The notes: generated by a model from the letters alone, not told the origin. A stretch of DNA of 64,000 nucleotides from Natrialba asiatica DSM 12278 (GCF_000337555.1 NZ_AOIO01000041.1:1-64000), one strand, 5' to 3'; positions 4,378 to 36,733 are shown, numbered from the stretch's first letter. Numbers and translations: made by a program.

Positions 4378-5730
4378 ATGGGAGTCACGTTCCTCCACAC
4401 TGCAGATTTCCATCTCGGAAGTCCTCTCCGCGCTGTGGAAGCGGCATCTGAATCATTGGCTGAGCGCCTGCAGCGAGCGACACACGAAGCTCTCTGTCGA
4501 GTTATCCAAGTCGCACTCGACAAGGACGTCGACTTCGTCGTCGTCGCTGGCGACCTCTACGATCAACAAGCGCGCTCCGTCTACGCGAATGAATTTCTCG
4601 TCGATCAGTTCGAGCGGCTCGAAGACGCTGAAATACCATGTTATGTCATCCATGGGAATCATGATCCATTGGGAGCAGGGGCAGAGAAACTCCCCTTACC
4701 CAATAATGTCCATGTGTTCGGTGCAGACGACGTTGAAACGGTTCTGTACCCGAATGACGATGAACCGGAGGCCCGCATCATGGGGCAATCGTATGGAAGC
4801 CAGTGGGAAAGCAACTCCCTGTATTACCACTACACACCGCCAGATACAGCAATCCCGAATATCGGCCTGCTCCATACGGGCCTAAATCCGGATGGTCGGC
4901 GGTACGCCCCCTGTGGGCCGAGCGACTTAGCACAGAAGGAGATCGACTACTGGGCGCTCGGGCACATCCATACGCCACAGCTGGTCGACGGAGCGCCAGC
5001 AGCGTACGCTGGTATACCACAAGGACGAAATATTGGCGAAACTGCCATCGGTGGTTGTTTGCTCGTCGACGTGGATGCAGGCAGCGATCCTGACATCGAG
5101 TTTGTTCCGACGAGCCCGATTGTCTGGCAAGAAATCGTGGTCGATCTCAGTACCGCGAGTACAGACGATGATACTCCCCTTCGTAACCTCGCAGATGCAG
5201 AAGGGTACCTCGAGGAGCGTATGCTGGATCTCCGGGCAGCGGACCAAGACTCTCTCACTGACACCCTTTCGATGCCGGTGGCTGAGACAGACTGGATGCC
5301 AGAGGGGTTTGTGTGCCGATGGACGCTGAGTGGCCGTGGAGAGCTGTTTGAAGCGCTCGACGAGGAAGCAACGGATGTGCTCGCCAACCGATTGCGGGAC
5401 CGCAGCAGTAGTGCCTCACCCTTTGTGTGGACCGAGTCCGTCCGTGATTACTCTGCACCACCACTTCCAGACCTCGAGACGTTGGTAGAATCGGACGAGA
5501 TTATCAGCGAACTGGTTGAGCTTTCCAACGAGATTCGAGAAGACGACGCGACACGAGCTGAACTGCGAGCGAAAACAGGTGATGTCTGGGAGTGGCGTGC
5601 GGACGAAGAACACGAAGACATTTCCGAGGATCGGATTGGTTTGGACGAGAAACGGCTAGACGATTTGATTGACCGTGCCGTCACTCGGTCAATCGACGAA
5701 CTTGCGACGCGGAGGGACAATGCAAATTAA
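4378..5730 (+). CDS. YhaO/SbcD-like metallophosphoesterase nuclease
   Basis: This is a 450-residue calcineurin-like phosphoesterase of the Mre11/SbcD/YhaO group. Metal-binding motifs are visible in order: D10-x-H12 (HTADFHLGS), GDLYD at 58-62, GNHD at 93-96, a later H in LLHTGL, and GHIH near residue 193-196. A TATA-like GATATAC lies about 27 bp before the ATG, so the transcript is probably leaderless. The stop overlaps the start of the downstream ATPase gene by 11 bp, so the two are translationally coupled. With that partner it should form an SbcCD-like exo/endonuclease that acts on DNA ends or hairpins. The pair resembles bacterial YhaO-YhaN more than archaeal Mre11-Rad50, which is normally chromosomal. 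Confidence 0.9.
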   Translation: MGVTFLHTADFHLGSPLRAVEAASESLAERLQRATHEALCRVIQVALDKDVDFVVVAGDLYDQQARSVYANEFLVDQFERLEDAEIPCYVIHGNHDPLGAGAEKLPLPNNVHVFGADDVETVLYPNDDEPEARIMGQSYGSQWESNSLYYHYTPPDTAIPNIGLLHTGLNPDGRRYAPCGPSDLAQKEIDYWALGHIHTPQLVDGAPAAYAGIPQGRNIGETAIGGCLLVDVDAGSDPDIEFVPTSPIVWQEIVVDLSTASTDDDTPLRNLADAEGYLEERMLDLRAADQDSLTDTLSMPVAETDWMPEGFVCRWTLSGRGELFEALDEEATDVLANRLRDRSSSASPFVWTESVRDYSAPPLPDLETLVESDEIISELVELSNEIREDDATRAELRAKTGDVWEWRADEEHEDISEDRIGLDEKRLDDLIDRAVTRSIDELATRRDNAN

Positions 5731-8623
5731 GAACCTCGATCTGGATGATTTTGGATGCTTCAGGCGAGCTCGACTCCAAAATGTCGATAGCGGATTGACC
5801 GTCATCGCTGGTCCACAACGGGCTGGGAAAACGACGTTTATGGAAGCGGTTCGCCATCTTGGCTATGGGATTCCTCGCGGCAATGGTCTCCCGCCAGCAA
5901 CGGACCAGTATGACCTCACGGCCGATGTCGTCGTTGATGGCGCTGAATACGAGCTAGCACTCACTGGCTATGGTGATCCCGCACTAGTGCCTATCAATGG
6001 TGCCCCCGATCGAGCACTCTCTGATGTATTCGGCAATCTAGGGCCCGCACAGTACCAGCAGCTCTTCACCATTAGCCTCGACGAACTCCGGCGTATGCCA
6101 ACGAGTCTCGACGACGACGTTAGCCTGTCTGCAATCTTACTCGGTGCGGCATATGGCGACGTTCTCAAAATTCCCCAGATTCAAGCCGCATTCAGTGATC
6201 GGGCGAAATCGATCGGAGGTAAACACGGACGCTCGGTCTATGAGCTTAAAGAGCCGATTAGCGAGATTCAGTCGGGGGTCGATGCGCGAGATGCCGCCGT
6301 CGCTCAGGTCGACGAGCACGATCGGAAAGAGGCTGCTCGAGACGATGTCAATTCCCGCGTAGCGGAACTCGATGAGGAGATTGCTGATCTAACAACGGAA
6401 CAAACTCGTCTTAACACGGTTCTCACGGAATACGGGGAGTTCGAGACACTCCAGGAGCTGAATCTTGAACTTGATGGTGCCGACCTTGACCAGGTCGATG
6501 CGTTCCCGACAGAGCAACTTGACCGTGGTCGGCAACTACAAAGTCAACTTGAGGAAGTGCAGGAGGAACTGACGACTGCAGAAGAGGAGTTCGCTCAACA
6601 GGTTACTGTAGAGGATCCCGAAGCATATCGCGACCAATTACTGGATGCTACGTCTACGATACAGACATATAATAGGGAAATCGCTGGCTGGCGTGAGCGG
6701 GTAAATTCACTTCAGGAGCAACGGTCAGAGCTTGCGAAAGAGCGTCGAAAACTTCGCTCCCGGGCAGCGGATTTGCAACCCGGGTGGGATGACGACTCCT
6801 TGCTTGACCGGGTCCGTGATGTTGAAACCGACCTGTTCTCTCGAGACGAGGTTCGGTCGATTACGCGGACCTGTGAGGATGTCCGATCCGAATTGAACGA
6901 GGTCGAGCGAAACCTGACCGAAAAGACGGCTCGTCACGAGCAGCTGGAACACGAAATCGACACTGCAACCGACTCGTCATCTGAGGCATCTCTTACACTT
7001 CGTGACCAGCTTCCTGTCGCTGCAGGTGGGACGGTACTCGCGCTGATCGTGGGAAGTGCGCTAAGAGTTGTTGGTGGTGCGGTTCTTGGTGTCGTCATCA
7101 CACTCGTGATAATACTGATCGTCGGCGCGTATGCTGCATCACGGCTTAAATTCGAGTCCCTTGAAGTCGATGGCGTATCTGTCGAGACCCTTCGGGCAGA
7201 CAAACGCAGCCTGACTGCCGATATTGAAGGACTGCGTTCCCGGAAAACGGATCTCGAAACGGAGTATTCGACCGCGACCGAGCAATTGGACTCGCTTCGA
7301 GAGAAGCTTGGACTCTCAGACGATACGAGTCCGGCTGCCGTGCGAGAGTTCTATGAAGACCTCTCATCGCTCCGGAACGATCTCACAACGTTGGAAGGCG
7401 ACGTTGAAGCTCTCGACACGAAAGAGGAAACTCTCCGTTCAGACCTCGCAGCAGCCGCCGAGACCGTATCCGAACTCGGTGTTCTCGATACTGACGATAG
7501 TGACCCGCTCGAAGACGCAGAGAAATTATTCACGACTATCGAAAGTATTGAAGAGGATCTCGACCTTGCACAAACGGTCACTACAGCCCAGCAGACTGTC
7601 ACCAGTCGCAAAGATGACCTCCGTGATCTCCTTGCCGAGTGGAACGATGCACCAGATCTTACTAATGCTGATTCAGCAACCCTCGTTCGTACTGTCGACC
7701 AGTTCCTCGAACGCGGTAAGAACGTCACTGAGCTCGTGGAAGCGCGGGAACAGCGTGACGGAATTCGCGTCCGACTCCAGCGGCGACTGACGGCCTCAGC
7801 TATCGAACCGGCGTTTGAACCGTACCGCGACTCGGAGCATGACGATGACGACTGGGCGATCGCTGCGTTCGAGCGTATCATTGAGGCGTACACTGATAGA
7901 GAGGCAATCGAAGAACGACTCGATACGATCGACGAAACAATCGAGAATCTTGAAACAGAGCGATCGGGATGCGTTGAAGAGCGAGTTGAGCTTACGAAGG
8001 AACTCGAAGAGCTAGCATCCGATGATGATGTCCGCGAGGCACATGCGACGATCGAGGCGGGACGACGTCGGCTCGAACCGCTTGCCGAAGAGTATGCGAT
8101 GCACCGCATCGCGGAGTACCTGCTGAACGAACTCCACGAACGATTCATTGACCGAACGACTGGGCCACTCCTCGACGAAGCCAGCGAGATTTTCGCGCGG
8201 ATTACCGACAACGCCTACACCAAAGTTGACTCCACCAAGGAATTCGACAATCTCGACTTCCAATCGGTGCTCGCTGATGGACAGACACAACAAACTGCGG
8301 AACTATCACGAGCCACCGCTGAGCAGCTCTTCCTCGCGATTCGCCTTGCACGAATTCGTCGCCATGAGTCGTCACTCCCTGTGTTACTCGATGATTCGCT
8401 GACAAACTTCGACCCCAGCCATCACGTTCGAACGCTACAGACGATCTCTGAACTCGCGGATACGAACCAAGTGTTCTTGCTGACATGCCACCCGGAACTT
8501 CTTGAACGAGTTGATACGCACATAGATAGCGTCCAGTACTGGAGTCTTGACGATGGGCAGTTCAATGGTCCCTACTCGAAGCCGGACGACCCCTGCGAAC
8601 TGCTGGAGCCGACCTGGTCGTAG
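5720..8623 (+). CDS. YhaN/SbcC-like coiled-coil AAA ATPase
   Basis: This is a 967-residue SMC/Rad50-like ATPase. Walker A is GPQRAGKT at residues 31-38, long charged coiled-coil segments fill the middle, and the C-terminus has an ABC-type nucleotide-binding half with SRATAEQLFLAIRLARIR (signature region) and LPVLLDDSLTNFD (Walker B and D-loop). A hydrophobic segment of about 40 residues near residues 430-470 is likely two membrane spans, a feature of YhaN/AAA_27 proteins and not of Rad50. No Rad50 zinc hook is seen. The ATG at 5720 overlaps the end of the phosphoesterase gene. The complex may act at the membrane on incoming DNA; this is inference. Confidence 0.88.
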   Translation: MQIKNLDLDDFGCFRRARLQNVDSGLTVIAGPQRAGKTTFMEAVRHLGYGIPRGNGLPPATDQYDLTADVVVDGAEYELALTGYGDPALVPINGAPDRALSDVFGNLGPAQYQQLFTISLDELRRMPTSLDDDVSLSAILLGAAYGDVLKIPQIQAAFSDRAKSIGGKHGRSVYELKEPISEIQSGVDARDAAVAQVDEHDRKEAARDDVNSRVAELDEEIADLTTEQTRLNTVLTEYGEFETLQELNLELDGADLDQVDAFPTEQLDRGRQLQSQLEEVQEELTTAEEEFAQQVTVEDPEAYRDQLLDATSTIQTYNREIAGWRERVNSLQEQRSELAKERRKLRSRAADLQPGWDDDSLLDRVRDVETDLFSRDEVRSITRTCEDVRSELNEVERNLTEKTARHEQLEHEIDTATDSSSEASLTLRDQLPVAAGGTVLALIVGSALRVVGGAVLGVVITLVIILIVGAYAASRLKFESLEVDGVSVETLRADKRSLTADIEGLRSRKTDLETEYSTATEQLDSLREKLGLSDDTSPAAVREFYEDLSSLRNDLTTLEGDVEALDTKEETLRSDLAAAAETVSELGVLDTDDSDPLEDAEKLFTTIESIEEDLDLAQTVTTAQQTVTSRKDDLRDLLAEWNDAPDLTNADSATLVRTVDQFLERGKNVTELVEAREQRDGIRVRLQRRLTASAIEPAFEPYRDSEHDDDDWAIAAFERIIEAYTDREAIEERLDTIDETIENLETERSGCVEERVELTKELEELASDDDVREAHATIEAGRRRLEPLAEEYAMHRIAEYLLNELHERFIDRTTGPLLDEASEIFARITDNAYTKVDSTKEFDNLDFQSVLADGQTQQTAELSRATAEQLFLAIRLARIRRHESSLPVLLDDSLTNFDPSHHVRTLQTISELADTNQVFLLTCHPELLERVDTHIDSVQYWSLDDGQFNGPYSKPDDPCELLEPTWS

Positions 8624-9085: not shown

Positions 9086-11164
9086 ATGTCTGCAATTGGT
9101 CACACAATGTCGGAGCTTCCTGGTGAGCTTCATCTGTTCTCTCCAACCGGCCCCCCGATCGAGGAGCGAGTCGCGCCTATCTTCGTCGAGTGTCTGAGTG
9201 AACACGATGTCGGCGATATCCTCGTGTTGAAGCGGTTCCCGACCGGCATCGAGACGTTTACCGATATTCTGGCAACTCACGTCGATACCGTTGAACGACC
9301 AGAAGTGATGTCGCTCACGCGATTTGCTCGAACAATCCTCGAAGCAAGCCCACAGAACCCGACGCTCGTCTCGCAGCATGAGCGTGCTGCTGTTCTTGCG
9401 TCGGTGCTCTCCGAGTACGAATGGGCCGATTCGTTTCTGCAACAAGCGTCGGCCTTCGATGCCTTCGAAGACGACGTCGGACGCTTCACGCTCGCAGCAG
9501 CGTGGCAAAATCAGAACGTGGACCCGAACGATTCTTCGCTCACTGAATTATTTGACTTCACGGCTCACCTGCAGGAGGTTCTTGCGACGAACGGATATGC
9601 TGAACGTGCGAGCATTATCCCACGAGCTTTAGAGTACCTGGAGGCGGAGACCGCACGTCCGCCGATTCTCGATCAGTTCGATGTGATTCTGACAGTAGAG
9701 GTTGAGGAGTTTTCTGCCCTGGAACGCCGATTCTTGGCAGCCGCGTCGACGGACACTGATTTGGTGTGTGTCGGAGAACGACATGGGAGTATTCAGCGGG
9801 TCCGGAACGAACCCGGAGACATCACCGACCATCTTCGCATGGAAACCATCGATCACGATTCATCGCGCCCCATATCAGGACCTGCTCAGGTAGCAGCGTA
9901 TCTCACGACAGGCGAAGCGCCACAACTGGCAGCTACGGACGGTCTATTCGAGATAACCGAGGAAACGTTCGCCGATCAGGTGCAGACCGTCGCAGAAGAA
10001 ATCGAACGCCGTCGAACGACAGAGGGGTGGTCGTACGATGAATTCGCGGTCGTCCTCAAAGATTCGAGTTCACCTATCCAAGAGACCGTTCGTATCTTAC
10101 AGCAAGCAGGCATTCCGACGGCGTCCATCACCACGAGTGCGCTTTCTGATGACCCTGCCGCTCGGGAGCTGTATCATGTTGCTCGATCTCTTGAGTCGGG
10201 TGGAGATGACCAATCCCGAACTCTGCTTGAAGCGAGAGTTCCGGACTTCACAACGATTCTCGACGATGACGAGCTGGCGACTGAACCAGTTTCGAACGCA
10301 TTGACGACCTGGGTTCTTGACACGGATCTCAAGCAACGGGTAGCTGCGAACGAATCACGTCTGGAGGCTCGTATCCAGTTCCAGCACATCGGGCGTATTC
10401 TCGACCTCGCGAGGTTCGTTGAGGATTGTCCGCTACTGGACTCCTCGTGGGACGCGTTCTGTCAGGCACTGGAGCGAGCATTCCGATACTCTGCTCCTGA
10501 CTTCTACAGCGAGGTCGACGTGAAGGAGGGCGGGGTCCTTGTCGACTCTGCTCGTGTGGTCAAAAACGCTTCCTGGAAGGCGGTGTTCGTCCTGAACGTC
10601 GTTGAGGAAGAGTACCCTGCAGTCCCACGCTTTTCATCGCTCTTTCCGATTGCACAACTCAAATCACTCCCCGAATACCCTGCTGTTACGAGTCCGACTC
10701 GAGACGAAGTCCGTGAAACCTTCCCGACTGCAGATGACGACATCAACCACCCATTCTCGGCGTACTACACTGAACTGAGCCGACGGCTCCTCGCGGTTGG
10801 CGCCAATGCGGCGACGGATCAACTGTATTTCTGTACCTATACAGAGAACGCAGCAGATCCAGGAAAGTACAAACAGCCGTCCCGCTTCTTGCAACAGCTC
10901 CGGGACCAGTTTGAATTCGACTCAATCACCCACGAGGACGTCCATAGCCAGGGTCGTGCTGCAACGAGAGTACTCTCCAGCGTAGATCGTGCTCTTCAGG
11001 ACGTACGGACCGCACCCGTCACTGGCGGCGACGTCGACCTGAACGCGATTGAGACGCAGTTCGGCGCGATCCAGCAGCTGTTGGATGAGACAGATGACCC
11101 CGGACTTGAAGCCGCATTCGAAGCACATGTCGACTTCGCTGAAGGGAGGGTTCGCCGTGACTGA
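9086..11164 (+). CDS. AddB/UvrD-like inactive helicase subunit
   Basis: This 692-residue protein is the first gene of a tightly overlapping three-gene unit with a RecB-type nuclease and a UvrD-type helicase. No Walker A is visible at the N-terminus (SPTGPPIEERVAP takes its place). The C-terminal half keeps features of helicase domain 2: a KEGGVLVDSARVVKNASWK stretch and NVVEEEYPAVPRFS, as in AddB or RecC relatives that have lost ATPase activity. A TATA-like TTTATC lies about 27 bp before the ATG. The likely role is the recognition or scaffold subunit of an AddAB-like DNA end-resection complex. The relationship is inferred from context and partial motifs. Confidence 0.7.
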   Translation: MSAIGHTMSELPGELHLFSPTGPPIEERVAPIFVECLSEHDVGDILVLKRFPTGIETFTDILATHVDTVERPEVMSLTRFARTILEASPQNPTLVSQHERAAVLASVLSEYEWADSFLQQASAFDAFEDDVGRFTLAAAWQNQNVDPNDSSLTELFDFTAHLQEVLATNGYAERASIIPRALEYLEAETARPPILDQFDVILTVEVEEFSALERRFLAAASTDTDLVCVGERHGSIQRVRNEPGDITDHLRMETIDHDSSRPISGPAQVAAYLTTGEAPQLAATDGLFEITEETFADQVQTVAEEIERRRTTEGWSYDEFAVVLKDSSSPIQETVRILQQAGIPTASITTSALSDDPAARELYHVARSLESGGDDQSRTLLEARVPDFTTILDDDELATEPVSNALTTWVLDTDLKQRVAANESRLEARIQFQHIGRILDLARFVEDCPLLDSSWDAFCQALERAFRYSAPDFYSEVDVKEGGVLVDSARVVKNASWKAVFVLNVVEEEYPAVPRFSSLFPIAQLKSLPEYPAVTSPTRDEVRETFPTADDDINHPFSAYYTELSRRLLAVGANAATDQLYFCTYTENAADPGKYKQPSRFLQQLRDQFEFDSITHEDVHSQGRAATRVLSSVDRALQDVRTAPVTGGDVDLNAIETQFGAIQQLLDETDDPGLEAAFEAHVDFAEGRVRRD

Positions 11165-12071
11165 TTCCGACTCATCGCGACCGTTGTCTCCTTCCCGACT
11201 GGGAACGTACACTCGGTGTTCGCGTCAGTACGAATACAAGCACAACCTCTCTGTCGAAAATCCCAATCAAACGCGCCGATATTTAGACCGTGGGCTGGCG
11301 CTGCACGGCACCATTGAGTATGTCTGTGAGACCGTAACTGGAGAGTCGGATGAAGAGATTCGTACTCTCGCGCTCGATGCCTTCGCCGACGAGTGGGACT
11401 CTCGCATGAGTCGCACTGAGTACGCCACTGCTGCTCACTACGAGTATGATAAACAACTCGCCCGTGCAGCGATTGAGGCCTACTTCTCGACCGGTCCAGG
11501 ACTTGATCACGTTCGTGGATCCATTCTCACGGAAGTCGAACTCGAATGTGAACGAGATGGTATTTTCCTCCACGGATACGCTGATAATGTCGTCCGTACG
11601 GACGACGGCCTCCAGATTATCGACTACAAGCCATCCGTCAGGTATGAGCTCTCGACGAGCGACCGCGCAAAGGAGAAGCTCCGCGAGCACCTTGCCGGCG
11701 AGGACTATCACCCTCGTATCGTTAAGAGCGCAATTCAGGTGGCGACCTACATCGAGGGGATTCAGAATACATCCGTCTACGAGCCGGGGATGGAGGTCGT
11801 CTTCACGTACTATGGGCTACTCGCAAACACGGATCTCGAAAAGAGTACTGCCGGCGTCCGACCCCGTGTCTCGGGCTATGGTCGCGATGTCGAGGAAACC
11901 TACTATAGCGAAGAAGAAACGATCTGGGGGCTGATTCAGCGGGCACACGACGGGATACGTGAGAACAACTTCGAACCCATTCAGTGGGACGCCATCCGCG
12001 AGAACGCCTGTGACCGATGTGATTATCGATCTATGTGTACCGATGCACTCGCAGAGGAGGTGCAGTTCTGA
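11157..12071 (+). CDS. PD-(D/E)XK (RecB/Cas4-like) nuclease
   Basis: This is a 304-residue nuclease starting at GTG 11157, which overlaps the previous stop by 8 bp. The N-terminus has LSPSRLGTYTRCSRQYEYKH, a typical PDDEXK_1 opening with the first cysteine of an iron-sulfur or zinc cluster. The catalytic core is LHGYADNVVRTDDGLQIIDYK (D and D-Y-K). The C-terminal ENACDRCDYRSMC supplies three more cysteines. The layout is that of Cas4 and the AddB nuclease domain. It probably acts with its neighbours as a separately encoded nuclease module. Longer upstream frames lack homology, so the GTG start is preferred. Confidence 0.85.
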   Translation: MTDSDSSRPLSPSRLGTYTRCSRQYEYKHNLSVENPNQTRRYLDRGLALHGTIEYVCETVTGESDEEIRTLALDAFADEWDSRMSRTEYATAAHYEYDKQLARAAIEAYFSTGPGLDHVRGSILTEVELECERDGIFLHGYADNVVRTDDGLQIIDYKPSVRYELSTSDRAKEKLREHLAGEDYHPRIVKSAIQVATYIEGIQNTSVYEPGMEVVFTYYGLLANTDLEKSTAGVRPRVSGYGRDVEETYYSEEETIWGLIQRAHDGIRENNFEPIQWDAIRENACDRCDYRSMCTDALAEEVQF

Positions 12072-15000
12072 TGTCACCACCCTCCGAAGACGAACCCGTC
12101 GAAGAGCCGTCACCGCGGATTCCCCAACAGCGCATCATCGAGTCTGGTGAGTATCCGATGCGAGTGTTGGCCGGAGCCGGGACCGGTAAGACGTTCACGA
12201 TGGTTCGAAAGGTCGAGCACCTGATCGACGAACACGATGTCTCACCGGATCGAATCCTCGCATTGACGTTCACGAACAAGGCTGCAGACTCGATGCGAGA
12301 GAAGCTGAACGAGAAGCTTGGCGCACCGGGATACGACGTAAACGCGTATACCTATCACTCCATCTGCCACGATATCCTTCGAGAGTATGCGTATCACGCT
12401 GAAATCGATCCGCAATTCGATGTCGTGAATAACGCTGATCGAACCGCCCTCATTCACGAAGCGCTTGATGAAATCACCTATCGATTCACCAGTCCTGAAG
12501 TCTATGGCCCCGATTCGCATGCCGATGGGGCGGCAGGCAGCCTGCTCAAATTCATCTCCACGATGAAGAGCAAAGGGATCTCCCCGAGTACCATCGAGAC
12601 ATTCCTTGGTGACGCTGACCGCCTCCTAGAACTAGAGGCACTCGTCGACCGAATTGTCGACCGGGCGAACGAGACGGTGCGGGTCAGCTGGCGGGCTCCG
12701 TCTGCAGACCGCCTCGAGGAGATGCGTGACGGAATCGCTGACCTTCAGCAATCGATAGCAAACGAACGATCCGCGCTCGGTCAGGCTGGGGTTGAACGGT
12801 CGGTCGCGACATATCTGCGCGGCATGGAGGAAACCTGTACTTCACTCGCTGAGCTATTAGAAACGGAGGAGGCGTCGATCATCGATGGTGAGCACAAGCC
12901 CGCGTTCCGTTTACCGGCCTATCTGTTCGGGACGTATTCCAGTCCACCGAGCGGTATCCCCGATTCGATCTCCGTCACGCTCACCGGGAAACTTCGGTCG
13001 TTCGTCGAGGAATGCCAAGAAGCAGCCGATCTGGTAGCCGGCTATACGGCGTACGAGCAACGCCTACACGAGGCATCGTTGGTCGACTTTGCCGACTTGA
13101 TCGGTGCGACACTCGAGCTCCTTGAGGACCCAGACATCCGTGCCGAGATTGCGGGACAGTATGATTACGTGTTCTGTGACGAATTCCAGGATACGGATGC
13201 TGTCCAATTCGAGCTCGTCGACCAGCTCGCCGACGATGACCAACTGTTCGTGGTCGGTGATGATGACCAGGCGGTTTACGAATGGCGTGGGGCGGCAGTT
13301 GAGAATATCGGGCGCCGACTCGAGGAAAGATACGAGACACTGGTTTCAGAAACACTTGAGGAGAACTTCCGCTCCAAGCAACCGATTCTGGATGTCGCGA
13401 ACAACGTCATCGCACAGCTAGAGGCCCGGGGGAGCGAGAAGGAACTCACCGCGGTCGGTGACGCTGCGGATGCGAGCGATGGCATTGCGACGATAACGGC
13501 AGCTGAGGACGATGAAGAGCAAGCTGAACAGATTGCGACTGCAATCGGCCACCTCCTTACAGGGTCACTCGATGACGTCGATGAAACGTACGACGCAGGC
13601 GACATCGCACTTCTCGTACGGAAAAATCGTCATGCAAAGCCGATTGTACGGGCGCTTGAAGAGCGCGGCATCCCGTATCAACTCGCTGGTGGACTCGCAG
13701 CTGATTCGGTTGGTGTTGAGACCGTCCTCGCGTATCTCAAAGCACTCGCAAATCCAGCGGACGAGGTCAGTCTGAATCGTGTGTTGACGATGCGCTATCG
13801 CCTTCACGACGCTGATCTCATATCACTCAACACTGCCTCTGATTCGTTATCGGAGGCATTGCAGTCGCTTCCGCTCGACCAGTTTCGTGAACCGGAACGT
13901 GTTCAACGAGCCCGCGAAGATTTCCAGGCGCTGCGTGCCAAGCGAGAGATCTACTCTGTAGCTCGTCTGTTCCGCGAGTTGAAAGAACAAACAAATATCG
14001 ACTGGTACCTGTCGCCACAAGAACGACGAGACCTACGAACACTGGAGTCACTTATCGACTCCTTCGGAGAGGGAGCGCTCCAGCCAGCATTAGACGAGTC
14101 GTTCCTCGATCTGCTCTCCCTCATGGAGTCACTCGACGATAGTATCGCTGGCGTGCAAGACCAAGCTGAAGCGGTGAATGACGCGGTCAATATCATGACC
14201 GTACACAAGAGCAAGGGACTAGAATTCCCGGTCGTCTTTCTTCCGAACCTTTCTGCTGACCAGTGGGAACCAGGCACGCGCTCGTACGATACACTCGGTC
14301 ACACGCTCGAAGAGACGGCTGCTACCCCTCTCGACCAGGACTTCGAAAAGCGCGACGAGTATGAAGCGCGCCGCATTTTCCACGTCGCCATGACGCGTGC
14401 GGAAGAGCAACTCGTACTCGTTGGTCGGCACGCCGACGACGGCGGAGTTGATGACGGTGATCTCTCGCTATCGTTCATCGACTCCTGGCTCCCCGAGCAA
14501 ATCCCTTGGCGAGCCACCGGTGCGTCCTTCCCTATCTGGCAAGAGGTCACCACTGGACTTCCACCGGAGGCTACAGATTGGACGGATGAGGTTGCTCCGA
14601 CCGATGGCGGCCTGGATCCGACTATCTCTGTGAACGGCGAACCCTTATCCCAGTCAGCGGCGCGGGATCGCGTCCTTGAACTTGCTCGTGGTTTGCTGAA
14701 CGGGGACCTCGACTCTGTCTCACCTGCAACGGCTGGATTTGCCGTTGAAGCACTGTCGACGGATGGTGGCCCCGCGTTGAGTCACCGGCACAGCTATACT
14801 TCGCTCGAGAAGTACAGCCAGTGTTCCCGGCGACACTATCTCGATTATCTTGTTCGTGCGTTCGAGGACCCCCAGCGAGGTGCCACCGGTTCCGACACCG
14901 TGTCGATTCGGGACATGGGTATCCTCTTCCACGATACTGCTGAGATAGCTGCGAAACGGAGCCTAATGTCACCCGAGGAGTGGAACAATGTCTGTGAGGA

Positions 15001-15499
15001 ACTCGGCCGCCAGGAGAGTTACTCGGCTGATATCGTTGATCAGGCCAAGGATTGCGTCGATCGGTACTTCAGCACTGAGGCGAGTTCGTGGGAGATCCTC
15101 GATGCAGAACGGTCGTTCACGCTCGACATTGATGGTCATACGATTACGGGGAAAATTGACGTTGTCTGTCGCAACTCGGCTGGTAATCTCGTCGTCCTCG
15201 ATTACAAGGCGACCACGGTGAAGCGCTCACTCGATGACAACCTCCAGTTACCGATCTACCTGCTCGCATGTCAACAGCTCTTCGACGAACGAATCGATGA
15301 AGCCGGCTATGTCTATGTCGGTTCAGTTGGCCCCGACATGAGTACTCGTTCGTTTTCGAGAGATGAGTTAGATCAGTGTCGGGAAGACCTCCTCACACGG
15401 TTACAAGAGGCTGAAGACTCGACCTTTGATAACTATACTGCAGGTGATCACTGCAAATGGTGTCCCCATCGCAGCCTGTCCTGCAGCCAAATTCGCTAA
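12071..15499 (+). CDS. AddA-like UvrD helicase with C-terminal nuclease
   Basis: This is a 1142-residue SF1A helicase fused to a PD-(D/E)XK nuclease. Motif I is AGAGTGKTFT near residue 33, motif Ia is LALTFTNKAA, motif II is FCDEFQDTD, motif III is VGDDDQAVYEWRGA, and motif VI includes HVAMTRAEEQL. The C-terminal domain has SYTSLEKYSQCSRRHYLDYL, the core GKIDVVCRN...LVVLDYKAT, and a cysteine cluster ending in CKWCPHRSLSC. The ATG overlaps the TGA of the nuclease gene (TGATG). This is the AddA/RecB domain order. Together the three genes encode an AddAB-like end-processing complex on an accessory replicon, useful for plasmid maintenance, for defence, or both. Confidence 0.9.
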   Translation: MSPPSEDEPVEEPSPRIPQQRIIESGEYPMRVLAGAGTGKTFTMVRKVEHLIDEHDVSPDRILALTFTNKAADSMREKLNEKLGAPGYDVNAYTYHSICHDILREYAYHAEIDPQFDVVNNADRTALIHEALDEITYRFTSPEVYGPDSHADGAAGSLLKFISTMKSKGISPSTIETFLGDADRLLELEALVDRIVDRANETVRVSWRAPSADRLEEMRDGIADLQQSIANERSALGQAGVERSVATYLRGMEETCTSLAELLETEEASIIDGEHKPAFRLPAYLFGTYSSPPSGIPDSISVTLTGKLRSFVEECQEAADLVAGYTAYEQRLHEASLVDFADLIGATLELLEDPDIRAEIAGQYDYVFCDEFQDTDAVQFELVDQLADDDQLFVVGDDDQAVYEWRGAAVENIGRRLEERYETLVSETLEENFRSKQPILDVANNVIAQLEARGSEKELTAVGDAADASDGIATITAAEDDEEQAEQIATAIGHLLTGSLDDVDETYDAGDIALLVRKNRHAKPIVRALEERGIPYQLAGGLAADSVGVETVLAYLKALANPADEVSLNRVLTMRYRLHDADLISLNTASDSLSEALQSLPLDQFREPERVQRAREDFQALRAKREIYSVARLFRELKEQTNIDWYLSPQERRDLRTLESLIDSFGEGALQPALDESFLDLLSLMESLDDSIAGVQDQAEAVNDAVNIMTVHKSKGLEFPVVFLPNLSADQWEPGTRSYDTLGHTLEETAATPLDQDFEKRDEYEARRIFHVAMTRAEEQLVLVGRHADDGGVDDGDLSLSFIDSWLPEQIPWRATGASFPIWQEVTTGLPPEATDWTDEVAPTDGGLDPTISVNGEPLSQSAARDRVLELARGLLNGDLDSVSPATAGFAVEALSTDGGPALSHRHSYTSLEKYSQCSRRHYLDYLVRAFEDPQRGATGSDTVSIRDMGILFHDTAEIAAKRSLMSPEEWNNVCEELGRQESYSADIVDQAKDCVDRYFSTEASSWEILDAERSFTLDIDGHTITGKIDVVCRNSAGNLVVLDYKATTVKRSLDDNLQLPIYLLACQQLFDERIDEAGYVYVGSVGPDMSTRSFSRDELDQCREDLLTRLQEAEDSTFDNYTAGDHCKWCPHRSLSCSQIR

Positions 15500-29507: not shown

Positions 29508-29516
29508 ATTTATATC
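29508..29516 (+). promoter_or_regulatory. TATA box of the DEDD exonuclease gene
   Basis: GATTTATAT lies about 27 bp before the ATG at 29540. This places the transcription start at the start codon and argues against the upstream in-frame ATG at 29489. Confidence 0.55.
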
Positions 29517-29539
29517 CACGTATTGAGCAGTCAGCGGAT

Positions 29540-30238
29540 ATGAGTCACGGAACGCTCGCGATTGACGTCGAAACTGCTAGCCCCTTTAACGATCCTGGCT
29601 GGGATGATTTCGATGACACCGCTTACTTCGAACTGGTTGCAATTGCGCTTGGCTATCAATCTGAACCTGAGGGCCCAATTGAGACGACGGTGCTCTTTCG
29701 TCGTGGGGGATGGGACGATGACTCTACCGCCTCTCTGTTAGAAGACGCCGTCTCCTGGTGTCGTGCTCGGGATGCAAGTCGTACGCTCACCTATAACGGA
29801 GATGGGTTTGACGCCATCCACCTTCGCAACTGGGGTGCACTCGTGGGTGTCGACGTTGAACCGCTGCTCGTTGGTCACGAGGATCTGAGACATCCAGCGA
29901 CTGAACGCCACGGTAATCGACTTCCGGAATGGAAGGACTTCCCGAAGTTCGAGACGCTCTGTGACTGGGAGGGCGTTGAGACGACATCTACCTACTACTC
30001 CGATTATAATCTGGAGACGTCTCTGCAGGGATACGATGCGATTGACTCCGCACATGTACAGGGCAAGCACATCGGGCAGGTTCTGGGAGAGCTGTATGTC
30101 GATGGACTTGATAACGGTGATACTGGCCCCTGCTCGATAGATGACCTCGAACGATTGATTTCGCATTATGCTACAGGGGACATTGAGCCCCTTTTCGAAC
30201 TCGACCGTCTATTTAACCCTCCTGAAGAGCCCGTATAG
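29540..30238 (+). CDS. DEDDy 3'-5' exonuclease (DnaQ-like) next to Argonaute
   Basis: This is a 232-residue RNase H-fold exonuclease. Motif I is TLAID9VE11TA, motif II is LTYNGDGFD91AIHL, and motif III is Y210ATGD214, so all four acidic residues and the tyrosine of the DEDDy class are present. The size fits a single exonuclease domain without a polymerase. I chose the ATG at 29540 because of its TATA box; 29489 would add 17 residues. It lies 219 bp before the Argonaute start on the same strand. A trimming exonuclease beside a DNA-guided Argonaute could make or mature guides, or degrade cut targets. That role is inference. Confidence 0.85.
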   Translation: MSHGTLAIDVETASPFNDPGWDDFDDTAYFELVAIALGYQSEPEGPIETTVLFRRGGWDDDSTASLLEDAVSWCRARDASRTLTYNGDGFDAIHLRNWGALVGVDVEPLLVGHEDLRHPATERHGNRLPEWKDFPKFETLCDWEGVETTSTYYSDYNLETSLQGYDAIDSAHVQGKHIGQVLGELYVDGLDNGDTGPCSIDDLERLISHYATGDIEPLFELDRLFNPPEEPV

Positions 30239-30299
30239 CGAATTCAATTCTCCCCTTACAATTCTGTGACCCGAATAGTGGCTCGATACCGGTTCTGAC

Positions 30300-30329
30300 A
30301 CTCTTAAGATTAATATTATCATTAAATGG
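30300..30329. repeat. AT-rich palindromic motif, copy 8
   Basis: CTTAAGATTAATATTATCAT (30302-30321) with a following TAAATGG lies in the region between the exonuclease and Argonaute genes, about 130 bp before the preferred Argonaute start. Confidence 0.7.
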
Positions 30330-30456
30330 CTGTAGTACTTCTTCTGATGTGCCAATTCAAAAATCGACCCCCAATTGGGTTTCTAGAATCAAAAGCAACA
30401 TCGCGTTTCAGCTTTCCCCTAGAATTAAGTTATGTGATGCGTACCTCTGTTTGAGG

Positions 30457-32976
30457 ATGAAGACTCAGGACGACATCGCTCACAAGCAGCCGATAACAAT
30501 CGAGGTTCAGATCCTCAAGGAACTCGACAAGCCCAGTCCGAAGATGGCGACCCGTTTTCTTGTCGCTGACCGTGACGGGAACCGGTTCTCGTTGGCGATC
30601 TGGAAGAATAACGCGCTCTCGGATTATGACTGGACGATCGGCCAATGGTACCGACTCGAGAACGCACGCGGAAATGTCTTCAACGGGAAACAGAGTCTGA
30701 ATGGCTCGTCGAAAATGCGTGCAACACCCCTGGAGGCATCAGAGGAAGACGAGACCAGTACCGACGATGTAGGCCGTGTTGATACCATCCTCGGAAACAT
30801 GTCGCCTGACCAGGCATACCTTTCGCTCTTCCCGATCAGTCGATCCTTCGATACCCTCTCGGTCTACGAGTACTCGATTGAAGCGGCTGAGGCCTTCGAG
30901 GATGCCCCTGATACAGTCACCTACCGGTGCGCTGGTCGACTCCGACGGATCACTGGCGCGGGTGTAGCGTATGCTGGTTCAATGCGAATAGTATCGACCC
31001 GAAAACTCCCAGATAAACTCGCGGATCCCTTTTCACTGAGCGAGCCCACAGAGCGAGAGTTGAATGCGACTGATGCTCGAGACCGTCATCGGATCGAGCG
31101 GCTCCTCAAGTCACTCGTCAAAGCTGCAATCGACGACTCGACGTACGACCCGTACCAGATCAACCGGATTCGTGCGCGAACACCGTCGATCACTGCCGGA
31201 GATGGGCTCTTCGAGGCGTGTTACGAATTCGCCGCACGGGTTGATGTCATGCCATCGGGTGATGCATTCGTAGGCATCGAAGTGCGCTACCACACACGGA
31301 GTCAGGTCACTGCTGACGTCTACGAGGACAAGACTGCCGAGTTGGTCGGAACTATCGTCGAGCACGACCCCGAGCGGTACAACATCAGTGGGACCGGACG
31401 AGTAGTGGGATTCACCGATCACCACTTCACCGATGCTCTCGACGAACTCGGCGGCCTCTCACTTGCAGACTGGTATGCTCAGAAGGATCGCGTTCCCGAA
31501 GGTGTCCTTGAGGCGCTCCGCGAGAAAAATCCACGGCTCGTCGATATCCAGTATCAAGAAGACGAACCTGCTCGAATCCACGTGCCAGATCTGCTCCGAG
31601 TCGCGCCGCGCAAGGAAGTGGTCAAGGAACTGGACCCAGCCTTCCATCGACGGTGGGACCGCGAGGCAAAGATGCTCCCAGACAAGCGGTTCCGCCACGC
31701 TATCGAGTTCGTCGATCATCTCGGCAGCCTTCCCGACATCGATGCGACGGTTGCTCCAGAGCCTCTCGGTCCGAGTCTCTCCTATATGTCGACAGCCGTC
31801 GATCGCGAGAAGAATCTCCGATTCAAGGACGGACGAACGGCTACCACTCCGTCGAGTGGGATTCGCTCAGGGGTTTACCAGCAACCCACGAGCTTCGATA
31901 TCGCGTACGTCTACCCCACGGAGAGCGAACAGGAGAGTAAGCAGTTCATCTCGAACTTCGAGAACAAGCTTTCACAATGCCAGTGTGAGCCAACGGCAGC
32001 GCGTCATGTTCCCTACGAACTCGGTGGTGAACTCAGCTACCTTGCTGTCATCAACGAACTGGAGTCGGTAGACGCTGTCCTTGCTGTCGTCCCACCACGG
32101 GACGACGACCGAATCACTGCTGGGGATATCACCGATCCGTACCCTGAATTCAAGAAAGGGCTCGGAAAGCAAAAGATTCCGTCTCAGATGATCGTGACCG
32201 AAAACCTCGGCACGAGATGGGTGATGAACAACACTGCAATGGGGCTCATTGCAGGTGCTGGTGGTGTTCCATGGCGCGTCGACGAGATGCCCGGCGAAGC
32301 GGACTGTTTCATCGGCCTCGACGTCACTCGCGATCCGGAGACGGGGCAACATCTCGGGGCCAGTGCAAACGTGGTCTACGCTGACGGTACGGTCTTCGCC
32401 TCGAAGACCCAGACACTGCAATCGGGAGAGACGTTCGACGAACAATCCATCATCGACGTCATCAAAGACGTCTTCCAGGAATTCGTTCGACGCGAAGGGC
32501 GGTCACCCGAGCATATCGTCATCCATCGCGACGGTCGGCTATTCGAGGATGCAGATGAGATTCAGGCTCCATTTGCAGACTCGGGCGTCTCAATCGACAT
32601 CCTCGACATCCGGAAGAGCGGTGCTCCACGCATCGCCCAGTACGAGGATAACTCGTTCAAAATCGATGAAAAGGGCAGGCTGTTCATCTCCCAAGATGAT
32701 ACCCACGGGTTCATCGCGACCACCGGGAAACCCGAATTCGATGATTCGGATAACCTCGGTACCCCGAAAACGCTACGCGTCGTTCGACGTGCGGGCGACA
32801 CGCCGATGCTGACGCTCCTGAAGCAGGTGTACTGGCTGAGTGAAGCCCACGTCGGAAGTGTCTCGCGGAGTGTTCGGCTTCCAATTACGACCTACTATGC
32901 AGACCGCTGCGCTGAGCACGCTCGAGAAGGCTATCTACTCCACGGTGAACTGATCGAGGGGGTTCCGTACCTGTAG
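30457..32976 (+). CDS. ago: Long prokaryotic Argonaute, NgAgo-like, catalytically intact
   Basis: This is an 839-residue Argonaute. The N-terminus (residues about 8-90, KMATRFLVADRDGNRFSLAI and after) is an OB-fold-like domain resembling the RPA-like domain of Natronobacterium gregoryi Argonaute. The MID region is around residues 490-600. In the PIWI domain all four catalytic residues are present: D622 (FIGLDVTRD), E658 (QSGETFDEQ), D692 (VIHRDGRLF) and D816 (TTYYADRCAEHA). The C-terminal segment LPITTYYAD is the same as I recall in NgAgo. Nicking or cutting of DNA with a short guide is expected from the family, and the actual guide type is unknown. The start at 30457 leaves out a 36-residue upstream extension from GTG 30349 that has no domain features. 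Confidence 0.93.
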   Translation: MKTQDDIAHKQPITIEVQILKELDKPSPKMATRFLVADRDGNRFSLAIWKNNALSDYDWTIGQWYRLENARGNVFNGKQSLNGSSKMRATPLEASEEDETSTDDVGRVDTILGNMSPDQAYLSLFPISRSFDTLSVYEYSIEAAEAFEDAPDTVTYRCAGRLRRITGAGVAYAGSMRIVSTRKLPDKLADPFSLSEPTERELNATDARDRHRIERLLKSLVKAAIDDSTYDPYQINRIRARTPSITAGDGLFEACYEFAARVDVMPSGDAFVGIEVRYHTRSQVTADVYEDKTAELVGTIVEHDPERYNISGTGRVVGFTDHHFTDALDELGGLSLADWYAQKDRVPEGVLEALREKNPRLVDIQYQEDEPARIHVPDLLRVAPRKEVVKELDPAFHRRWDREAKMLPDKRFRHAIEFVDHLGSLPDIDATVAPEPLGPSLSYMSTAVDREKNLRFKDGRTATTPSSGIRSGVYQQPTSFDIAYVYPTESEQESKQFISNFENKLSQCQCEPTAARHVPYELGGELSYLAVINELESVDAVLAVVPPRDDDRITAGDITDPYPEFKKGLGKQKIPSQMIVTENLGTRWVMNNTAMGLIAGAGGVPWRVDEMPGEADCFIGLDVTRDPETGQHLGASANVVYADGTVFASKTQTLQSGETFDEQSIIDVIKDVFQEFVRREGRSPEHIVIHRDGRLFEDADEIQAPFADSGVSIDILDIRKSGAPRIAQYEDNSFKIDEKGRLFISQDDTHGFIATTGKPEFDDSDNLGTPKTLRVVRRAGDTPMLTLLKQVYWLSEAHVGSVSRSVRLPITTYYADRCAEHAREGYLLHGELIEGVPYL

Positions 32977-32990
32977 CCACCCCTCGGCCG

Positions 32991-35096
32991 ATGGTGAGCG
33001 GTGATCTCACCACTGAGTCCGTTCAAACCCACAAATCCATGAACTTCAGCACCCCTATCACAGTCCCACGCAGTGACGGCGACGACACGGTCGAAATCGA
33101 GATGGAGTTCGCGATGGTCCGGTCGTGGCGGTCGTTCGTGAAGTACTTCGGTGAAGCACGGGCGATTCGCACTGTCACCTACTCGCAGTCGCCACAGATA
33201 ATTCACGAAGTATTCAATCACGAAAAGCTCGACATCGACTTCCTCGAAGTGGTTATCGGTGATTACCGCCAGAGTGAGTATCGAAAAGATCTGCAGGGAG
33301 ACGTCGACTTGGCAGCGCAACTAAACCATCTGCTCCAGAATGAGCAGCTTCAGCTGTTTACTCTCGATAAGCAGGTGACGCTTCACTCGAAGCTGTACCT
33401 GATCGAGAATCGCGATGGTACTCGTACACTCATACTCGGGTCACCCAACCTCTCGAAACAAGCGTGGGAGGGAAACCAGACGAACATGCTGGTTGCCTTT
33501 ACAACGGATGGGACTTCACTTATCGACACCTGGTTCGAGAAGTTCTATGAGGCACATCGAAAGCAATGCGAGGTGTTCATGAAGGATCTCACAGAGCGAC
33601 TCGATGCTGCCGAGACACCAGAGGAGCAAACAGAGGAACTGCACCTCTGGGTCGATGGAACGATGCCGTCGAACAACCCCACTGGAGATCTTCACCGCCG
33701 TATCGTCGATCTTCTCGACGAAAACGACGAGCGGATTCGACGGGTCAACGTGGCTTCCGACCCGGATGAGGCAGACGAAGTTATTGCGCTCGCAACGGAC
33801 GGTTCCGGAGATGTCGACCCCACCGATGTTGGACCGAGCCAACAGATTCGACTCTCGCCACAGGGTCTCGAAGACCCGGTCAAAAGCGCCAAATCTACGC
33901 TTACACGTCACAACGTTGCCGTGAAACCGACCGAACTTCGTGGATCACCAGCTGGCTTCGCTCGCTATATGCGGTCGTTCAATGACGACTTTCCGATAAT
34001 GTGGCTCAATGAGAAAGAGCAGTCGGTTAGAATGCAGGTGGACAACACCACCCTAGAACTCACTGCTTCGCCCGACCACGCCTCGGAGGTCGACGACGCA
34101 CTAGCGCATATTGAATCTTACATCGAGACGATTCAGCGCTTTGGGGACACGAAGTACTCCGAGGCCACGATGGCCCATTTCTATGAGGCACTGATCTACT
34201 TTTTTTGGGCCCCGTTCGCGGATTACTTCGCTAGCCACTACGCTGGTACTCCCGGCGCTGAGCTCGACAAGGATCTCCCATTCCTCTACATTCACGGTGG
34301 AAACGACTCCGGAAAGGGGATGTTCATCCGGTTTGCGATTCGACTCATCTCGAATGGGTATGTGGCAGAACCTGTGGAAGGAACACAGTTCACGAAGGAC
34401 GCAATCAACCGGTGTCGAGGGTCGAATACCGTCTTCCCGTTCGTCGTCGACGACGTCGATAAGGGCAATGTCGAGCGAGACATCGTCAAGACCTACTGGG
34501 AAGGGGGATGGGATGGCTCAGTTTCGTTCCCCACATTCATTTTCACCAGTAACCACACGAAGCCCAAATCGGAGTTCCGCACCCGAATGAAGGTCCTCGA
34601 CTTCGACGTCATGTTCGATGTCACTGGTGACCAGCGCGAGAAAGCCGCCCGAATTGCAAACGAACCGAACCGACTCTTCTCCTGGTTCTCGCACTTCATG
34701 TTCGAGCAAGACCTTTCGCTTCCGGACCGGTCGGACAAGTTAGCTGTCGCTCGAGATGTCTTCAAACAGCTCTACGAATTTGCCGAGCGTGACGAACCAA
34801 ACTACTTCCCGTCTGAAGGCCCTGCCGAGGACATCTATGACCATGGCCGGCGAGTGTGGCGACACGCACACGAGAGCGGCCTGTTCACCCTTGAAACGCG
34901 GAACGGGGTCATCCGGGCCGACTTCTCCGCTGAACTCGAGTCACAAGACGTCTGGAAGTACCAGAAGCTCGTGCCCGCGACGATTCGGGCAGAAAAGCAA
35001 CGAGCACGGATCGAGTTTAGTCAACCTGAGCGGTTCTTTGAGTGGACTGGTATCAAACCCAAACGCGGGTTCTTGCAGCGTCTGGGATTCAGATAG
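32991..35096 (+). CDS. PLD-type nuclease fused to P-loop (SF3-like) ATPase
   Basis: This is a 701-residue protein starting 14 bp after the Argonaute stop, so almost certainly co-transcribed. The N-terminal domain (1-200) has one HKD motif, H132-S-K134 with the downstream GSPN (150-153), as in phospholipase-D-superfamily nucleases that act as dimers. A central acidic linker follows. The C-terminal half has Walker A GGNDSGKG (436-443), a Walker B-like PFVVDDVD (483-490) and a sensor-type FTSNHTK near 518-524, resembling SF3 or D5-like helicase ATPases. PLD nucleases are known neighbours of long Argonautes, but I do not know this fusion as a described component. An ATG at 33039 is a possible later start. 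Confidence 0.82.
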   Translation: MVSGDLTTESVQTHKSMNFSTPITVPRSDGDDTVEIEMEFAMVRSWRSFVKYFGEARAIRTVTYSQSPQIIHEVFNHEKLDIDFLEVVIGDYRQSEYRKDLQGDVDLAAQLNHLLQNEQLQLFTLDKQVTLHSKLYLIENRDGTRTLILGSPNLSKQAWEGNQTNMLVAFTTDGTSLIDTWFEKFYEAHRKQCEVFMKDLTERLDAAETPEEQTEELHLWVDGTMPSNNPTGDLHRRIVDLLDENDERIRRVNVASDPDEADEVIALATDGSGDVDPTDVGPSQQIRLSPQGLEDPVKSAKSTLTRHNVAVKPTELRGSPAGFARYMRSFNDDFPIMWLNEKEQSVRMQVDNTTLELTASPDHASEVDDALAHIESYIETIQRFGDTKYSEATMAHFYEALIYFFWAPFADYFASHYAGTPGAELDKDLPFLYIHGGNDSGKGMFIRFAIRLISNGYVAEPVEGTQFTKDAINRCRGSNTVFPFVVDDVDKGNVERDIVKTYWEGGWDGSVSFPTFIFTSNHTKPKSEFRTRMKVLDFDVMFDVTGDQREKAARIANEPNRLFSWFSHFMFEQDLSLPDRSDKLAVARDVFKQLYEFAERDEPNYFPSEGPAEDIYDHGRRVWRHAHESGLFTLETRNGVIRADFSAELESQDVWKYQKLVPATIRAEKQRARIEFSQPERFFEWTGIKPKRGFLQRLGFR

Positions 35097-35134: not shown

Positions 35135-36733
35135 CTATGTGAGCATGAGGTAGAACCAGTATGGAATACGTACGATCGGAGTCTCTTCAAGAACTTCGAC
35201 TGGTTCTGGCAAGGTCGCTGTGTCTCCCGCAACAACAACCCCAAGCGGAGCTTCGTAGGTCTCGATGAACTCCGCGACTGCATTCGTTGTTGGCTCCATC
35301 GAACCTGCCCTGTAGCCGAGTCCGATCGGAACAGGAACACCAGCACATTCGAACACGAAATCGACCTCGCCTTCCGTTCCGGGCCAGTACTCGACTGTCG
35401 GTTCAGCTGGTGGATCATAGTCATTGAATTCATACCCTGCGGAAAAGTTCATATTGAAACTGAGACGCATCGAGTGGTCGAAGGCTGCCACATGCGCCAG
35501 CTTCGATTCGAGCTGATAGTCATTGAGGACCTCACTGGGCGTGTGGCCTGTATAGGCATTGACGAGTGCTGTATCACGTAGGTAGAGTCGAATGGAACGT
35601 GGTCGACTGTTATCGTATTCTGGCGATGGTGTGAGGAGGAACAGCTTACTGAGAGCTTCGAAGTAGCTCTCTCGAAGTGTTCGCCGATCGACGTCGAAGA
35701 GTTCAGAAAGACGGTTGTATCTGAACGGTGTTTCCAGATCTGCTGCAACGAGTGCACACAGCCGCTCCAAGTCTGCAATATTCTTTACTGCATCTAGGCC
35801 CGGTATCTCTTGGTAGAGAGAGAGCCGTACGTCTTCGCGACGGTGTTTGTACGCATCTTCTGAGAGGTTAGATGCAGAATCGATCCCTTCTGCTTCGTAG
35901 CTGAGGACCCCACCGAGTGCGAGGTAGTGCACCACCTGTGAACGAATGCGACTCGCATCGATCTCTACAGAGTCATAGAGTTCGCGTAATGTCTCGAAAA
36001 ATTGCGTTGGGTCGTTCGTGCGACAGGCGTTTGGTAAACCTGTCTCACCTTGACGAATTGGTGAGGGGCTTAGTCGTCTCTCATCTTCTTCGAGTTCTGG
36101 GAAAACACTCTGAATATGGTCACGGAATTTTTCAGGAAAAATCGGCCAGACCGAATATCGATCTGCATCGAATCCAACTCGTTTGAGTTCCCGTTCGATT
36201 TGGAGTTCTGCACTTGCAGTGAGAATCACATGTCGGTCTTCCGCTCCCTCGAGTAGTGACTTAACTTCCTTACCCCATCCTTCCAGAGACTTATTCGGAT
36301 GTTCAATCCGATGTACGTCGTCTAAGATGATGTACTGTGGTGCTTCGTTCTCAAACACTTGGCTCAGGATGCGTCCCTCGTAATAATTGACCGCACGTCG
36401 CAGCTGATCATTTGACTGGAGCTGATATAGCGGGTTTTCGTCGAACGGAATGTAGAGTACGTTTTGAGGAGGTATCTCGTCTGCTTTGATTCGCTGACGG
36501 ATAAACTGATTAATGAGTACGGTTTTTCCGACTCCTCTTTGCCCAACTAACGCATACACGTCGTATTTGTCGGGTTCCGGCTCGGATTTGTAGGGTGATG
36601 CGAACCGATAAAAATCACTTTTCTTTTGCGCTGGGATGTCTAATTCATCAAGTGCGCTCACTCCGTTTCTCCACCATGGATTGTGGCGATGGAGGTTAGA
36701 TAGAAGCGAGTTGTCGATTGTGTCTTCGGCCAT
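35135..36733 (-). CDS. AAA ATPase with DUF4143-type C-terminal domain
   Basis: This 532-residue protein is convergent with the PLD-ATPase gene (39 bp between stops). Walker A is GQRGVGKT (64-71), and Walker B is PQYIILDDVHRI around residue 133-144. The region HVILTASAELQIERELKRVG is the sensor segment of AAA_14 ATPases. The C-terminal half, with LYLRDTALVNAYTGHTPSEV and EVDFVFECAGVPVPIGLGYR, matches the DUF4143 layout (a nuclease-like fold whose E-x-D-F-V...P-x-x-x-x-x-R looks like a degenerate D/E-x-K site). These proteins are common in archaea and mobile DNA, and their job is poorly known. It may belong with the defence cluster or only flank it. Confidence 0.82.
   Translation of the reverse strand: MAEDTIDNSLLSNLHRHNPWWRNGVSALDELDIPAQKKSDFYRFASPYKSEPEPDKYDVYALVGQRGVGKTVLINQFIRQRIKADEIPPQNVLYIPFDENPLYQLQSNDQLRRAVNYYEGRILSQVFENEAPQYIILDDVHRIEHPNKSLEGWGKEVKSLLEGAEDRHVILTASAELQIERELKRVGFDADRYSVWPIFPEKFRDHIQSVFPELEEDERRLSPSPIRQGETGLPNACRTNDPTQFFETLRELYDSVEIDASRIRSQVVHYLALGGVLSYEAEGIDSASNLSEDAYKHRREDVRLSLYQEIPGLDAVKNIADLERLCALVAADLETPFRYNRLSELFDVDRRTLRESYFEALSKLFLLTPSPEYDNSRPRSIRLYLRDTALVNAYTGHTPSEVLNDYQLESKLAHVAAFDHSMRLSFNMNFSAGYEFNDYDPPAEPTVEYWPGTEGEVDFVFECAGVPVPIGLGYRAGSMEPTTNAVAEFIETYEAPLGVVVAGDTATLPEPVEVLEETPIVRIPYWFYLMLT

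Follow-up and report, generated by a model that had tools for sequence, protein, structure and literature searches.

The window analysed here is a 64,000-nucleotide stretch of DNA from Natrialba asiatica DSM 12278. Positions 2218–47692 are near-collinear (about 98%) with plasmid unnamed3 of N. zhouii YPL30, and the window is therefore plasmid-type DNA that genomes have shared recently. Three plus-strand open reading frames, read in an initial annotation as same-strand genes for an exonuclease, an Argonaute (Ago) and a PLD-ATPase, are present at the predicted sites (Table 1), and the 14 bp gap between the last two was confirmed. A minus-strand gene for an AAA_14/DUF4143 ATPase, overlooked in that annotation, lies 38 bp past the PLD-ATPase gene.

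Table 1. Genes of the Argonaute locus and of the DNA-end-processing block in the window
Feature	Position	Strand	Basis and remarks
Mre11/SbcD-like metallophosphoesterase, plasmid backbone block (possible)	4378..5730	+	domain match
Rad50/SbcC-like ATPase, plasmid backbone block (possible)	5720..8623	+	domain match
c8, AddB-like helicase-fold half without nuclease domain	9107..11164	+	hhalign, structure matches
c9, stand-alone PD-(D/E)XK (RecB/Cas4-like) nuclease, apparent other half of split AddB	11184..12071	+	PDDEXK_1 6.7e-23
AddA-like UvrD helicase with C-terminal PD-(D/E)XK nuclease	12071..15499	+	Pfam domains
DEDDy-type 3'-5' exonuclease-like protein, 232 aa	29540..30238	+	motif residues; loosely linked satellite, not core partner
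Long-A Argonaute, 839 aa, tetrad D622/E658/D692/D816, putative OB-like N-terminal segment	30457..32976	+	Pfam Piwi, PADLOC pAgo
PLD nuclease + SF3-like helicase/ATPase fusion, AgaP-type, 701 aa, compact HxK-x15-GSxN	32991..35096	+	motifs, structure search
AAA_14 + DUF4143 ATPase, 532 aa, Ago-linked conserved partner	35135..36733	-	Pfam, synteny

Other features lie between these genes. A SIR2-like and HerA-like pair (20258–23225) matches the PADLOC SIR2/HerA models; because it is missing from the sister locus in genome G358, it is taken to be a separate inserted cassette. Two overlapping ORFs at 23296–24323, annotated in N. zhouii as two ADP-ribosylglycohydrolase pieces, are probably a broken gene. 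Just 5' of the exonuclease (25875–29430) are two genes, one for a protein of 666 aa that matches PD-(D/E)XK weakly and one for a 464-aa ATPase of the GHKL type; at locus L132 a GHKL gene 74% identical to that of the window likewise sits 5' of an exonuclease. An AT-rich palindrome family (consensus TTAATCTTAATATTAAGATTAA) gave seven matches in the window against 0.01 expected, with copies at 3740–3759, 15565–15584, 17643–17662, 18331–18352, 24348–24367 and 30304–30323 and cores also at 2765, 16096 and 36885. Every copy lies shortly 3' of a stop codon, several of them between convergent genes, and the palindromes are candidate terminators or operators.

The Ago protein has 839 residues when read from its ATG, a start that aligns with relatives; a longer ORF with a GTG start begins at 30349. 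It matched Pfam Piwi (1.5e-16) and the PADLOC pAgo model (1090 bits, residues 76–839). The catalytic tetrad is intact at exactly the residues named in the initial annotation and is invariant in an alignment of ten divergent haloarchaeal Agos. A motif reading suggests an OB-fold-like N-terminal segment, missed earlier, at about residues 1–95.

Motifs and structure searches back the earlier description of the PLD-ATPase as a single HKD nuclease fused to an SF3-like ATPase. Its one HxK (H132, K134) and one GSxN motif (G150–N153) are nearly or fully invariant among 26 homologues, and G436, G441 and K442 of Walker A, together with D488, N521 and R532, are invariant in the same set. Structure searches with the AlphaFold model (pLDDT 82.7) matched the N-terminal part to restriction-type PLD proteins, namely the NgoAVII R protein, SauUSI and Nuc. 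For the C-terminal part the matches were SV40 large T (E 0.013) and SF3/D5/VapE helicases of viruses, the best named SF3 match having E 7.7e-5; the TM-scores were low for the whole chain, yet the matches were consistent. The C-terminal half combines Walker A, a Walker B acid, a motif C asparagine and an arginine finger with an SF3 fold, and the model supports its assignment as an SF3-type helicase. A profile search of PDB sequences gave no match, and no relative was confirmed in the viral contigs searched.

The initial annotation did not recognize a described defence system at this locus. Ago and the PLD-ATPase, however, correspond to the haloarchaeal APAP system, reported in 2024 for the long-A Argonaute and AgaP of Natrinema pellirubrum (Cheng et al., 2024; PMC11442185). 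AgaP is toxic alone and Ago suppresses this toxicity; plasmid restriction requires the AgaP HxK site, whereas immunity to ssDNA virus requires the Ago tetrad, and in H. hispanica the operon of these two genes was enough to confer immunity to plasmids and virus (PMC11442185). The defence against plasmids or viruses proposed at the outset has thus been shown in a relative for the Ago and PLD pair (PMC11442185).

The N. pellirubrum pair is located on plasmid pNATPE02 (locus L092). The window shares with it the two families in the same order on a haloarchaeal plasmid, a long-A Argonaute with a complete DEDX tetrad, and an adjoining same-strand AgaP homologue with an N-terminal PLD domain; identities to N. 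pellirubrum are 55.7% for Ago and 33.5% (over 97% of the protein) for the PLD-ATPase. The 14 bp spacing, compared with 31–64 bp reported on the same strand, would be compatible with co-transcription. Toxicity, its neutralization by Ago and HxK-dependent plasmid loss would be predicted for the window protein, in which the corresponding residues are present. The window protein lacks the split HxK-(x)~49-GSxN motif of the published AgaP: its HxK and GSxN start 18 residues apart, as in 36 of 51 relatives, whereas the N. pellirubrum-type separation of about 50 residues is confined to one clade (15/51 homologues). Because the split motif is limited to that clade and APAP is defined by Ago and PLD, we treat the split as a clade trait that does not define APAP and the compact window system as a putative APAP variant.

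From the haloarchaeal class 391 genomes were sampled, and 100 regions were extracted, their genes called, the proteins clustered and maps drawn. Ago occurs in 53 of these genomes and the PLD-ATPase in 93. Both are present in 39 of the 53 Ago genomes, where 12.6 would be expected if kinship is ignored, and the two genes are adjacent in about 20 loci. The linkage anticipated for all three families of the initial annotation therefore holds for Ago and the PLD-ATPase in many genomes, and adjacency of the exonuclease holds in one lineage only. Even the common Ago–PLD pairing is not universal, since loci L094, L096, L100 and L101 and most loci of clades D–H have an Ago without a PLD-ATPase. These clades come from a quick Ago tree: clade A (nine rows) holds the window Ago and NpAgo, B has two, C 13, D ten and E–H 15. 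The label 'NgAgo-like' was rejected for clade C, because a comparison of NgAgo motifs suggests that NgAgo belongs with clades E–H. In 14 of 15 clade E–H loci (L126–L140) ago is preceded at short distance by a gene for DUF2797 (PF10977), which in most of them abuts or overlaps it (0–42 bp) and is possibly another unstudied Ago partner.

The PLD-ATPase tree does not follow that of Ago. The nearest relatives of the window protein are from Ago-free loci (65–67% identical), and it groups first with these and next with clade C, apart from the AgaPs that go with its own Ago clade. A tree that holds it together with the NpAgo-type AgaPs was rejected (AU p about 1e-235, for a group picked after the identities had been seen). 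This rejection points to partner exchange, since the PLD-ATPase of the window belongs to another branch. At least six to seven gains or losses of Ago linkage are needed across the tree.

The AAA_14/DUF4143 ATPase gene is found within 3 kb of 24 of the 25 clade A–C Agos, including some that have no PLD gene. It is convergent in the window and mostly divergent elsewhere, about 255–290 bp upstream of ago. No second copy was detected in the window's genome at E 1e-5, and its profile found none in 40 sampled Ago-free genomes, a search set without a positive control. A search of ∼ 85,000 species genomes confirmed 17 relatives, all haloarchaeal; the flanks of 15 could be judged, and 12 of these are beside Ago and three beside split AddAB and an exonuclease, with a PLD-ATPase also visible in two of the three. 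The structure model of the ATPase was of low confidence (pLDDT 58) and was left out of the fold search. The words ATPase and exonuclease are absent from the main text of PMC11442185. The ATPase is an unreported, steady companion of clade A–C Agos.

Genes for DNA-end processing (counted as split AddAB, Mre11–Rad50–NurA–HerA, MrfAB and Dna2-like) lie within ∼ 10 kb of 40/52 Ago loci, 15/28 Ago-free PLD-ATPase loci and 1/20 control loci, the controls being a small set of exonuclease loci, mostly from large contigs. NurA by itself is useless as an island marker (382/391 genomes). Within the window, the split AddAB (9107–15499) is 15 kb upstream of Ago. Its AddA has the expected UvrD helicase with a C-terminal PD-(D/E)XK nuclease, and c8 is weakly AddB/UvrD-like (hhalign to AddB-like E 2.7e-4; structure matches to AddB 3u44, E 0.002, and UvrD1, 2e-4). 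As c8 is distantly AddB/UvrD-like and the nuclease domain it lacks is encoded in its own gene, c9, the two together look like a split AddB. The close AddA family (> 900 bits) is present in 54/391 genomes and shares 22 with Ago, against 7.3 expected with kinship ignored; 32 of the 54 have no Ago, which excludes AddAB as an obligate partner. The block 4378–15499 (Mre11/Rad50-like genes plus split AddAB) occurs without Ago in genome G125 and may therefore be plasmid backbone in the window rather than an Ago partner. The PLD and DEDD exonuclease genes had brought DISARM/MrfAB into consideration, but no YprA-type (DEAD + MZB/DUF1998) gene was found among the Pfam-scanned window proteins, and DISARM/MrfAB was rejected for the window; MrfAB is seen only at other Ago loci.

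Clade C has the fixed order ATPase, Ago, PLD-ATPase, c8, c9, AddA. The Agos of its 13 loci are 83–97% identical (proteins 73–99%), and the clade is, judged by these identities, one recent spread, so linkage counts overstate independence. The other Ago clades have AddAB, Dna2-like, Mre11–Rad50–NurA–HerA or MrfAB genes nearby. Kuzmenko and colleagues reportedly found in 2020 that the guide supply of CbAgo depends on RecBCD/AddAB. That case resembles the window in combining Ago with an AddAB-type helicase-nuclease; there the enzyme is the host's own repair machine, whereas here genes of that class are on the mobile DNA of Ago. A passage of PMC9040764 cites the CbAgo–RecBCD link. In Synechococcus elongatus, SeAgo, a Cas4-like nuclease, UvrD and RecJ restrict a plasmid (PMC10653904). 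The same enzyme classes act there against the same plasmid, but they emerged from a genetic screen and not from one gene cluster, and no PLD-ATPase or DUF4143 ATPase was reported (PMC10653904). Ryazansky et al. (2018) listed PLD (og_136), UvrD + PD-(D/E)XK (og_6) and Cas4 (og_56/60) proteins among pAgo neighbours and did not see operons of a set make-up in particular groups of pAgos (PMC6299218), in contrast to the fixed gene order of clade C.

We consider it probable that the window encodes a divergent APAP-type system with an unreported ATPase partner, and that it is set in islands of modular make-up whose end-processing genes may provide the guides. The core would be the genes for Ago, the PLD-SF3 protein and, on the other strand, the AAA_14/DUF4143 ATPase. 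Homology and synteny with the pNATPE02 pair and intact catalytic residues in both enzymes argue for an APAP-type core; the ATPase is included because it is beside 24/25 clade A–C Agos, whereas none was detected in 40 genomes that lack Ago. As the linkage suggests, helicase-nucleases of the island, here the split AddAB, would open and chop the DNA ends of plasmids and viruses that invade or replicate fast; this step is proposed because such genes are near so many more Ago than control loci, although clustering of defence and repair genes is usual on plasmids in any case. By analogy with CbAgo and TtAgo, the short fragments would be taken up by Ago as guides and lead it to matching DNA. Genetics of the N. 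pellirubrum relative suggest that the PLD protein would be restrained by Ago and freed on target, and that Ago's own slicer would take a larger share against ssDNA viruses (PMC11442185). The SF3 ring would presumably load and unwind DNA for the PLD site to cut, and the replicon would be lost. The ATPase, as constant companion, might be a regulator or loader; our guess is a switch that arms the Ago–PLD pair. A fuller version, a self-contained DNA-interference pathway borne by haloarchaeal mobile DNA, in which dedicated AddAB-like or Mre11–Rad50–NurA–HerA enzymes make the fragments from the ends of invader DNA, Ago uses them as guides, PLD-SF3 destroys the target, the ATPase is an obligate control subunit and Ago is exchangeable, is quite unlikely to hold in all its parts.

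It is possible, if less than probable, that the PLD-SF3 protein works primarily in a DNA-end-processing (repair or anti-plasmid) system to which Ago adds targeting as an optional extra, gained or lost several times; this is partly compatible with the APAP-type reading that we prefer. The PLD-ATPase is the more widespread of the two (93 genomes versus 53), its tree requires repeated changes of Ago linkage and the window protein is closest to Ago-free relatives. Ago-free PLD loci lie beside split AddAB (L154–L160) or beside Mre11–Rad50, mostly with NurA and HerA (L143–L147, L152, L166, L169). However, in 13 of the 28 Ago-free PLD loci that were sampled, the 10 kb around contain no gene for end processing, and suppression of PLD toxicity by Ago in the one tested pair indicates a dedicated complex.

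A plain APAP pair, in which only Ago and PLD matter and the genes for the ATPase and for resection merely travel along on plasmid defence and repair islands without a common mechanism, seems unlikely. The two-gene operon was sufficient in H. hispanica, as noted above, and modules do shuffle freely, as with the SIR2–HerA cassette that G358 lacks. Against this, the ATPase family is found at hardly any loci other than those of Ago and split AddAB, occupies a fixed divergent spot relative to ago in most of them, and also accompanies Agos without a PLD gene.

The initial annotation instead suggested a chain that makes guides, cuts the target and destroys it; in this chain the exonuclease would trim guides or targets on behalf of Ago, and the PLD-ATPase would destroy the target. 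The exonuclease residues D9, E11, D91 and D214 are all where they were described. In the family alignment D9, E11 and D91 are present in 27/27 and Y210 and D214 in 26/27 sequences; with the D-x-E, D and Y-x3-D motifs all present and conserved, the protein is DEDDy-type, while no Pfam family scored above the cut-off and no PADLOC model matched. Trimming of guides by a 3'-5' exonuclease is plausible, and the gene adjoins ago in the window and, intact, on the N. zhouii plasmid, which at 98% identity is the same element. The family (101/391 genomes) is also near eight Ago loci, adjoins the PLD-ATPase in L154–L159 and L170, and has an odds ratio of 3.4 for co-occurrence at the genome level. Of 52 Argonaute loci, however, those of the window lineage are the only ones in which it directly adjoins ago; elsewhere it is mostly scattered among mixed, unrelated neighbours, and in the window 218 bp holding a copy of the recurring palindrome divide it from ago. 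Moreover, in the G358 sister locus (91% identical DNA) the stretch matching window 28227–30034 is deleted and two thirds of the exonuclease are lost, yet Ago, the PLD-ATPase and the AAA_14/DUF4143 ATPase remain. Because adjacency is limited to one lineage and G358 deleted most of the gene, the exonuclease was ruled out as a core partner. Under the refuting condition given in the initial annotation the proposed three-part set fails, as Ago orthologues regularly occur without an adjoining exonuclease, and the Agos without a PLD-ATPase fall under that condition too; we regard the chain as very improbable. The exonuclease is taken to be an optional gene, separate from the core but somewhat enriched on the same islands, and may have a loose accessory role. 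Zucchini, an animal nuclease of the PLD family, cuts precursors. That the PLD domain would likewise cut precursors into guides for Ago is barely credible: the PLD folds that the model matches do include Zucchini structures, but Foldseek places restriction enzymes and Nuc above them, AgaP is toxic without Ago, and the AgaP site, not that of Ago, removes plasmids (PMC11442185).

The Ago of the proven defence system has served to improve gene editing. The modelled SF3 half of AgaP suggests that the nuclease would need no outside helicase to gain access to double-stranded DNA of plasmids. Beside 24 of 25 related Agos, the AAA_14/DUF4143 ATPase is a specific, unstudied partner candidate of a defence system that is already proven. 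Finally, islands that pair an end-processing machine with Ago make the origin of the guides of catalytically active archaeal Argonautes a directly testable question.
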